DNA of 64,000 nucleotides from Achromobacter xylosoxidans. GTDB taxonomy: Bacteria; Pseudomonadota; Gammaproteobacteria; Burkholderiales; Burkholderiaceae_B. The translations under genes and the position numbers were made by a program. The DNA lies in contig NZ_LN831029.1 in the NCBI RefSeq assembly GCF_001457475.1, forward strand, positions 1 through 64,000. Reading direction: 5' to 3'. Of this stretch, positions 2,651-64,000 are shown one piece after another (within the stretch, counting starts at the first letter, position 1; every line of letters starts with the position of its first letter). Under the pieces are notes generated by a model. The model was not told the origin of the DNA. It worked only from the letters and a program-made list of their open reading frames with translations, and ran no database searches.

Positions 2651-5116
<2,466 letters not shown>

Positions 5117-23892: not shown

Positions 23893-24350
23893 GCGTTTCT
23901 CTGATCGGCTGGAAGCCGGTGGGTCGCTGTTGCGGCTTGCCGGCTTTTTGTTTTCTGCTCGCGAATCTTTCTTCGTAGGTCGGCCGGCGCGGCGAGGGGC
24001 GGGCGGGGCGCGCCTACGATTGCGGTCCGGAGCCTTCGCTCCGGACTGCCCCATCGTCATCCTCGTTGCCGCCTGCGGCGGCTGCCTACGGATTCCCTCG
24101 GGCGCATCTACACGGCGCGCCCCGCCCGCCCCTCGCCGCGCCGGCCTGCATATGTCGAGAGTTGAGGCGTTGTTGGAGCGGAGGGGGCATGAAGAGTGTG
24201 TGTTGCCCGTCATGGTCGGCTGCGCGGGCAGCCGGCCATGACTTACGCGATGTCTTGTGGTGGCGCGATGTGCGCTGCGCGACGTTGACGCGGGGCTGGG
24301 TTGGCCCGGCCCGGCCTTGGGTGGGAAGAGGGGCGGTGTGGCTGGTCGTT
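23893..24350. other. Intergenic region holding repeat copy 1
   Basis: A gene-free 458-bp stretch between two convergent genes. It carries the 165-bp structured repeat at 23982-24146; the remaining part shows no credible gene, and short frames across it are shadows of the repeat. Confidence 0.7.
23982..24146 (+). repeat. Structured dispersed repeat, copy 1
   Basis: Perfect 33-bp inverted arms (23982-24014 and 24114-24146) enclose a 99-nt core. The core begins TACGATTGCG, holds hairpin A (GTCCGGAGC-CTTC-GCTCCGGAC) and hairpin B (GCCGCC-TGC-GGCGGC), and ends GCGCATCTACAC. Copies 2 (minus strand, 33273-33430) and 3 (63647-63810) share the core and the 33-bp arm length but not the arm sequence. 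Core lengths 99, 92 and 98 are not frame-preserving, so it is not coding. Confidence 0.9.
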
Positions 24351-33272: not shown

Positions 33273-33430
33273 GCCAGGAGCGCCGTGCCGAGGGGTGGGC
33301 GGGGCGTGTAGACGCGCCCGACGGAATCCGAAGGAGCCGCAGGCGACGAGGATGAGGATGGGGCAGTCCGGAGCGAACGCTCCGGACCGCAGTCGTAGCC
33401 CCGCCCACCCCTCGGCACGGCGCTCCTGGC
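33273..33430 (-). repeat. Structured dispersed repeat, copy 2
   Basis: Core homologous to copies 1 and 3, read on the minus strand (92 nt, 33306-33397), between perfect 33-bp inverted arms 33273-33305 and 33398-33430. Hairpin A is GTCCGGAGC-GTTC-GCTCCGGAC; hairpin B is short here (GCC-TGC-GGC). On the minus strand it is preceded by CTTTAGAC (33431-33438), nearly the CTTAAGAC that precedes copy 3. Confidence 0.9.
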
Positions 33431-63309: not shown

Positions 63310-63382
63310 GGCTAATCGACAGCCGAACGCAAACCGATTGCCCGCGCGTGTGGGGCGCGGACAGGGGGCGTGTGACGGCACA

Positions 63383-63526
63383 TCTTCTCTCATCCGGACT
63401 GTGACCGTCGGCCCTGGCATCTCACCAGATCTGCTGACCCCGGTGTCCGTAAAGGACGCCGGGCGCTCGCGGGCTCGCCAAGTTGCTTGGCATACCGCCG
63501 GTGGGGAATTTCGCCCCGCCCTGAAG
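63383..63526 (-). ncRNA. FMN riboswitch (RFN element)
   Basis: Read on the minus strand, the conserved RFN blocks appear in order: AGGGCGGGGCGAAATTCCCC, ACCGGCGGTA, GAGCCCGCGAGCG, CAGATCTGGTGAGATGCCAG, GGCCGACGGTCACAGTCCGG and ATGAGAGAAGA. It precedes ribB. FMN binding is expected to lower ribB expression, probably through the downstream hairpin at the start codon. Confidence 0.95.
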
Positions 63527-63646
63527 ACGTACTGCTTGTTTGTCGTGTTAACGACGTCGGGGATTTTACGCTGGTCTTGGGAGGGGCGCTGAATATGCTT
63601 ATTGCGGGTGGGGTTTTGGGTGGGGGTGGGGGTGGGTTCTTAAGAC
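63527..63646. other. Spacer between the riboswitch and repeat copy 3
   Basis: The ribB promoter must lie here or just upstream on the minus strand. TAAAAT on the minus strand near 63562 is a possible -10, but no good -35 hexamer is at the right distance. Confidence 0.3.
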
Positions 63647-63810
63647 GCCGGGGGTGGCGGGGCTTGGGGGGAGCGGGGCTACGATTGCGGTCCGGAGCGT
63701 TCGCTCCGGACTGCCCCTTCGTCATCTTCGTCACAGCCTTCGGCTGTTCCTTCAGATTCCCTCGGGCGCATCTACACGCCCCGCTCCCCCCAAGCCCCGC
63801 CACCCCCGGC
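63647..63810 (+). repeat. Structured dispersed repeat, copy 3
   Basis: Perfect 33-bp arms (63647-63679 and 63778-63810) enclose a 98-nt core homologous to copies 1 and 2. Hairpin A is GTCCGGAGC-GTTC-GCTCCGGAC; hairpin B is ACAGCC-TTC-GGCTGT, different in sequence from copy 1 but equally paired. It is preceded by CTTAAGAC (63639-63646), as copy 2 is by CTTTAGAC. Confidence 0.9.
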
Positions 63811-64000
63811 TCGGTCGGTTGCCACTTCACGGGCGTGGGGGCGGGTGGCTTGCTTGGCGTTTTGGCCAAGAGCCGGGCTGGGTCGGAGGGGCTTGCGGGG
63901 TCGCCAAAGGCGGCCACGCGGGTGGCCTTCTTTGGCGTTTGGGTGTCTTGCGTCGGGGCGGTGCTGGGTTGGCTGCCGGGCTGGCGGCCGGGTGTTGGGC
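63811..64000. other. Terminal intergenic stretch
   Basis: No credible gene seen in the last 190 bp; a long hairpin lies at 63902-63937. The next gene is outside the window. Confidence 0.5.
63902..63940. terminator. Long composite hairpin, possible terminator
   Basis: Outer stem CGCCAAAG / CTTTGGCG and inner stem GGCCAC / GTGGCC with a GCGG loop, separated by a small internal loop; TTT follows on the plus strand. The gene it would serve is outside the window. Confidence 0.45.

Follow-up and report, generated by a model that had tools for sequence, protein, structure and literature searches.

A dispersed family of non-coding elements in Achromobacter, putatively a structured RNA, whose long stems differ in sequence from copy to copy

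Why should a repeated element keep two inverted arms that match over exactly 33 bp when the sequence of those arms differs between copies? This question is raised by the first 64,000 nucleotides of the Achromobacter xylosoxidans genome (NZ_LN831029.1; 6,813,182 bases in a single contig), which are hereafter called the window. A preliminary description of the window noted three copies of an element with mismatch-free 33-bp arms and spacers of 92-99 nucleotides, and proposed either that structure is selected or that an arm-copying or conversion process keeps repairing the palindrome.

An inverted-repeat rescan of the 64-kb window confirms all three copies, with perfect 33-bp arms at 23982-24146, 33273-33430 and 63647-63810 and spacers of 99, 92 and 98 nucleotides, respectively. 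No other perfect inverted repeat in the window reaches 33 bp with a spacer of 60-140 nucleotides. When the arm setting is lowered to 16 bp there are 54 matches, compared to none in 20 shuffles of two-base blocks, and 54 is the count expected from three nested 33-bp arms (3 x 18). Pairing ends at 33 bp in all three copies with no outward extension, and copy 2 is oriented opposite to copies 1 and 3.

The element exceeds its arms and continues beyond the right arm in copies 1 and 3, wherein the hairpin part of 158-165 nucleotides belongs to a unit of about 310-355 nucleotides. Among 86 aligned copies, conservation extends across about 355 columns, far past the arms. In the order of the strand that folds, a 5' domain carrying a small hairpin (hairpin II) is followed by one side of the long stem (stem I), the core, the other side of stem I and the sequence GGGCG..C..AAGAAC. 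RNA folds of copies 1 and 3 give z-scores of -8.8 and -11.7. The features are listed below with the evidence for each.

23982..24014, minus strand: copy 1 stem I, 3' arm of the folded strand, 33 bp (inverted repeat and fold)
24015..24113, minus strand: copy 1 conserved 99-nt core with apical hairpin, small covarying hairpin and purine-rich internal loops (fold and covariation)
24114..24146, minus strand: copy 1 stem I, 5' arm of the folded strand, 33 bp (inverted repeat and fold)
24147..24281, minus strand: copy 1 conserved 5' domain of the folded strand (conservation; end approximate, by eye)
24209..24242, minus strand: copy 1 hairpin II, a conserved GC hairpin flanked by variable outer arms (fold and hairpin II alignment)
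33273..33305, plus strand: copy 2 stem I, 5' arm, 33 bp (inverted repeat)
33306..33397, plus strand: copy 2 conserved 92-nt core (sequence comparison)
33398..33430, plus strand: copy 2 stem I, 3' arm, 33 bp (inverted repeat)
63647..63679, minus strand: copy 3 stem I, 3' arm, 33 bp (inverted repeat and fold)
63680..63777, minus strand: copy 3 conserved 98-nt core (fold and covariation)
63778..63810, minus strand: copy 3 stem I, 5' arm, 33 bp (inverted repeat and fold)
63811..63960, minus strand: copy 3 conserved 5' domain of the folded strand (conservation; outer end approximate)
63902..63937, minus strand: copy 3 hairpin II (fold and hairpin II alignment)

The 5' domain of copy 2, which would lie below 33273, is recognisable for its first bases only.

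Spread, pairing and strand polarity of the family

There are at least 38 copies in the host genome when the copy 1 core is used as query, as judged from the best 40 of 87 candidates, two of which belong to one fused scar. None of these 40 matches falls between 3.02 and 5.06 Mb, where weaker copies are possible; this is the part distant from the presumed dnaA at base 1, an open frame at the start of the window read by eye as putative dnaA. Searches at the DNA level find matches in 12 of 13 genomes of the genus and in none of 8 others of the order. The preliminary description had suggested a covariance-model search of related genomes, and the model used here (R1, built from the core and inner arms, with strict filters that miss weak matches) finds the element in 50 of 268 genomes of the family and 3 of its 43 genera. 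These comprise 42 genomes of the same genus, seven of genus g16, which we take to be Bordetella and presumably related to Achromobacter, and one of genus g17; one Achromobacter genome (G003) has no R1 match. Per-genome counts of 40 matches are lower bounds on copy number.

The preliminary description recognised no described family, and the Rfam comparison agrees with it. A known Rfam RNA was rejected as an identity because no family scores above threshold over any element in the whole window or at five loci searched with E up to 5, where the only match over the element is MIR1151, whose 30.6 bits (E 0.28) fall short of the threshold of 90. The only match in the window is an FMN riboswitch (63378-63532, minus strand, 109.7 bits), which adjoins copy 3 and lies upstream of a minus-strand gene call.

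Pairing of stem I was counted in 254 intact copies (263 minus nine without a genome label), which were chosen by exact core words, a choice that favours intact copies and places window copy 2, L088 and L052, among others, outside the stem counts. Of 7942 stem columns, 7746 (97.5%) are Watson-Crick pairs although the arm sequences differ, which bears out the observation that each copy pairs with itself while differing from the others. The pairing score is 0.968 for a copy's own arms versus 0.738 for arms swapped among copies of the same type and length, the latter value being high because the arms are G-rich and C-rich. The description of the arms as exactly 33 bp long without mismatch holds for the window copies and fails for the family as a whole. 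Only 147 of the 254 copies lack any mismatch (not counting seven inner columns that are constant in subtype B), and the 115 stems of subtype A, cut at 34 columns, measure 32 (8), 33 (71) or 34 (36) bp. For uncut stems, the longest unbroken run is most often 33 (15 of 86), then 31 (11) and 34 (9), whereas the most common length is 30 in g16 (9 of 21) and 35 in g17 (8 of 9). Mismatched arms and other lengths had been put forward as signs that the exact pairing was coincidence. Such copies do occur, yet the difference between own and swapped arms indicates tolerance rather than coincidence.

The mismatches are distributed unequally between the strands. On the folded strand, the 254 stems carry 107 G·U, 57 G·A and 14 A·C pairs, 13 others and five gaps, whereas equal tolerance of both strands' mismatches would give equal numbers of G·U and A·C. 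Thus, in copies 1 and 3 it is the minus strand of the window that folds. The same preference is found in g16 (13 G·U versus two A·C in 21 copies with 20 distinct arms) and in g17 (eight versus one in nine copies with five distinct arms), or 21 versus three when pooled. When 36 copies from the host genome are split by replication strand, with the terminus assumed to lie opposite dnaA, the numbers are few (two versus zero and nine versus one). Single-stranded DNA, too, tolerates G·T more readily than A·C, and therefore the polarity names the strand and not the molecule.

There is further evidence for folding in the core. An alignment of 54 copies, drawn from 116 non-redundant copies of which 70 are listed, has 99.9% of its cells paired. 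There are 75 cells changed on both sides, compared to 18.4 on shuffling, and none changed on a single side; 19 of the 26 core pairs never vary, and two of five covariation measures are matched by some shuffles (6 and 96 of 500). One strand therefore folds, with its wobble pairs on that strand and with covariation in the core, and these two observations support selection on structure, the first of the two alternatives proposed earlier.

The apical hairpin is invariant in the 54 aligned copies, and the versions in g16 and g17 differ while still being self-complementary. The cores of L015, L029 and L171 carry, by eye, an extra GC-rich insertion of about 15 nucleotides at the same place. Hairpin II, counted under the same exclusion of unlabelled copies, is represented by 159 distinct flank pairs, in which the aligned arms show 107 distinct sequences. 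Its columns in a local alignment made without a shuffle control comprise 1221 Watson-Crick pairs and 45 others, with no clear G·U polarity (eight versus six).

Genomic placement and the kind of molecule

Among 114 single copies in five related genomes, whose gene context comes from a crude GC3-based gene caller, 71 are located between convergent genes. The others are found in tandem gaps (19 with the gene direction and four against), between divergent genes (4) or in places where no gene is called on one side (16). The window background of 51 gene pairs is nine convergent, eight divergent and 34 tandem. Only the tandem copies are informative about orientation, because in a convergent gap either orientation follows a gene end. 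Beside the outer end of GGGCG..C..AAGAAC, the opposite strand carries a T run in 19 of the host genome's 24 single copies and in 89 of 112 across the five genomes (two of the 114 had too short a flank). At this end there are only 2 and 8 A runs, respectively, and T runs on that same opposite strand number 9 and 33 at the other end of the element. There is no sigma-70-like promoter in two stretches scanned, and a single terminator-like site beside copy 1 is no excess over a shuffle mean of 1.0. At 16 of 30 loci, the site of copy 1 is occupied, holds a remnant or contains unrelated spacer, and no clean boundary or target duplication is recognised there (L192 comes without a right flank).

Some copies are arranged as divergent pairs with their 5' ends inward, totalling about 800 bp, and such pairs are present in g16 and g17 too. 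Several unusual loci are related to this arrangement. L088 (G000 6484630-6484673) consists of two element 3' halves joined head to head at the apical hairpin, and resembles what would remain if a divergent pair had lost the DNA between its two hairpins. L489 (about 3398-3835, genome G112) has at least two tandem stretches like the 5' domain, lacking the long hairpin, inside a divergent pair, and L032 (about 2032-2238, G007) shows, by eye, a small open frame in the middle of a longer pair. A mobiliser carried within the pairs was also considered. The one examined, in G112, encodes a Mutator-family transposase (430 amino acids), presumably of the IS256 type, within an insertion sequence of about 1383 bp that is found inside or beside the element at five of six loci read (L488, L489, L490, L498 and L500). 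Its copies in L488, L489 and L490 are 99.9-100% identical, whereas the surrounding elements are 83-95% alike, and so it looks like an insertion sequence rather than the element's own engine. It may prefer the element as a target.

These features bear on whether the folded molecule is RNA or DNA. One possibility is that the element acts as DNA, wherein a folded single strand or cruciform is used by a mobile-element or replication protein and the free arms serve folding only. The dispersed copies, the gains and losses at individual sites and the resemblance of divergent pairs to element ends are consistent with this, as is a GNA-type loop, which is stable in DNA. A likeness to integron attC sites was considered as well. 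However, there is no linked transposase other than the insertion sequence inside or beside copies in one genome, the host genome has no Y1_Tnp, stems are kept at fixed sites over species splits, and the element is placed at gene ends. We therefore regard a role as DNA as rather unlikely. The strand polarity, the placement and the rich core together lead us to infer RNA instead of single-stranded DNA. This RNA would be co-transcribed with the upstream gene as a 3'-UTR module, and perhaps the element shields or processes mRNA 3' ends. A duplex of 33 bp would be a suitable substrate for RNase III.

Changes in the arms between orthologs

There are 406 copy pairs that share both flanks, a count that retains the nine copies without a genome label, and some of these pairs may be one copy met twice. 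The arms of copy 1, for example, are identical in G048 and G023 and quite different in G008, and a remnant occupies the site in G002 and G034. Changes were counted in orthologs of the same subtype with stems of at least 28 pairs. In G023/G048, 28 stems with 934 columns carry nine two-sided changes, all within five stems, and 10 one-sided changes, and 15 stems are unchanged. The corresponding counts are 19 two-sided and six one-sided changes for G002/G034 (14 stems, 461 columns), eight and three for G001/G004 (4 stems, 134 columns), and 31 and 17 for G000/G002 (20 stems, 665 columns). Three non-overlapping close genome pairs give 36 two-sided versus 19 one-sided changes in 1529 columns.

These numbers were compared to a pair model of 16 states in which mutations are independent and selection acts on mismatches, G·U included, applied to the three non-overlapping genome pairs with K3 of the flanks as a rough clock. 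Summed over these pairs, 36 two-sided changes were seen, whereas independent mutation accounts for 0.9-4.1 under the best models. The maxima are 1.21 for G023/G048 and 1.25 for G002/G034, obtained at 3% mismatches and a tripled clock. Adding a concerted step raises lnL by 53 to 104 over four assumed clocks, a gain whose true weight is lower because columns within a stem are not independent. The two-sided changes are concentrated in few stems, and the concerted model misses their spread (18.6 expected versus 9 seen, and 13.7 versus 19). Transversions make up 17 of 33 two-sided changes in three overlapping genome pairs, near the share in the flanks (1114 of 2487), and thus the two-sided changes are not mainly of the kind that passes through G·U. 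The statement that both arms of a copy change together is therefore upheld between orthologs, above the level that independent mutation predicts.

Changes in length are also paired. Three ortholog pairs (L238/L297, L270/L286 and L280/L298) have paired indels, counted as net length changes because adjacent indel marks may be an alignment choice. In L270/L286 and L280/L298, one base pair has been gained or lost, in a G run of one arm and a C run of the other, and the rest is identical. A gapped alignment of L018/L098 has one two-sided change together with a paired insertion. By comparison, there is one single-arm gap among the 28 stems of the closest genome pair. Paired changes and paired indels between orthologs thus support the second alternative, an arm-copying or conversion process.

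The change could be copied from the opposite arm or from elsewhere. One alternative is ectopic gene conversion, by which hairpins are overwritten in whole or in part from other genomic copies, each of which is already a perfect stem. Some arms do recur at other loci (L018, L146, L106 and L316, and the pair members L004, L016 and L090), a similar arm exists at another locus for the L018 group and L242/L284, and the orthologs L002/L089 and L015/L090 share identical or near-identical arms while their cores are 0.80-0.85 identical. Since the arms of the L018 group recur and some orthologs share arms and not cores, gene conversion between copies probably also acts, and the paired indel of L238/L297 may be such a conversion. 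However, no donor is present for L008/L251 or L270/L286 among the sampled copies (for the host genome, 36 of at least 38), where the best other match is far below, and a donor would not typically give single-bp paired slips. Ectopic conversion is thus unlikely to be the principal explanation. Still less probable is that the arms stay complementary solely through selection with ordinary independent compensatory mutations in the style of rRNA stems, with no copying process needed. Structure is clearly selected and G·U and G·A intermediates exist, yet for the three genome pairs with 9, 19 and 8 two-sided changes the models without a concerted step predict 0.25-1.2, 0.27-1.25 and 0.4-1.6, and paired indels have no mild intermediate.

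A possible explanation and its relation to known systems

The family apparently consists of dispersed, non-coding elements with one folding strand that constitute a putative structured RNA. We lean towards the explanation that this RNA includes a stem of free sequence and constrained length, which is kept complementary by selection and arm-to-arm copying, with some gene conversion. In this proposal, the complement of the core strand shown by copies 1 and 3 would fold into a 5' domain with the small hairpin II and then a stem I of 30-35 bp, tipped by the conserved core. Stem I would be free in sequence but constrained in its pairing and its lineage-specific length, like a rigid spacer; 33 bp may correspond to three turns of A-form RNA. 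Complementarity of the arms would have two sources: selection removes mispaired copies, and whatever changes in one arm is carried over to its partner, most likely when replication switches template within the hairpin. Some conversion between copies would add to the turnover of arms. The more specific proposal, that a stem of about three helical turns with selectively free sequence is rewritten in single events by arm-to-arm copying, is offered only tentatively.

If this is true, each locus is a fast-changing and nearly always perfect duplex, and the family, with its dozens of loci in each genome and its presence in several species, is a natural recorder of bacterial hairpin template switching. 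The way in which long perfect RNA stems survive mutation is an old question, and template switching has been proposed in answer, mostly from rRNA (PMC8794818). In this family a single genome supplies dozens of such stems, 30-35 bp long and fixed in position; sister species serve as time points and slips of one base occur in both arms at once, so that the rates of one-sided and two-sided change are directly countable. Stems of this kind would provide a natural test of how one arm of a DNA hairpin is copied onto its partner. The family is, in addition, a multi-copy element of Achromobacter and its relatives for which no description was found in the literature searched, a body of work with few subscription journals.

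The preliminary description named a REP/BIME-like element as a likely candidate, and this identity was rejected. REPs are extragenic palindromes of 20-40 bp with GTAG or CGTC tags (PMC3733652), and they share with the Achromobacter element the use of alternative paired residues in their stems. However, the element is too long at about 165-355 nucleotides, and the host genome has no match to the Y1/RAYT transposase domain (Y1_Tnp, PF01797). This domain is matched in two of 10 other genomes, nine of the 10 being element-bearing.

Closer in kind are the large structured repeats ERIC (RU-1) and YPAL (RU-2) of enterobacteria, described as intergenic, multi-copy, foldable and MITE-like sequences of 127 and 168 bp (PMC2759123, PMC2229807, PMC2267715). 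The Achromobacter element is likewise multi-copy and intergenic with one dominant long hairpin, a likeness of kind only. Relative to ERIC and YPAL as they are presented there, its arms vary and still pair at a constrained length, its core covaries, it has an extra 5' domain and it resides in other genera. Bor-1 (117 and 93 bp) and Bor-2 (167 bp) are structured intergenic families of Bordetella (PMC2267715). These are also intergenic stem-loop repeats, and Bor-2 is near the length of the hairpin part, as judged by the published lengths. Since the element may be identical or related to Bor-1 or Bor-2, what is new, as far as the searches go, is the behaviour of the arms and the Achromobacter family itself.

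The closest parallel for that behaviour is template switching, by which multi-base compensatory changes arise in one event and perfect stems are kept by copying one arm (PMC8794818). Those cases are inferred from rRNA and Rfam histories wherein perfect stretches are usually short, whereas the stems described here span 30-35 bp, are found at dozens of loci and carry paired indels.
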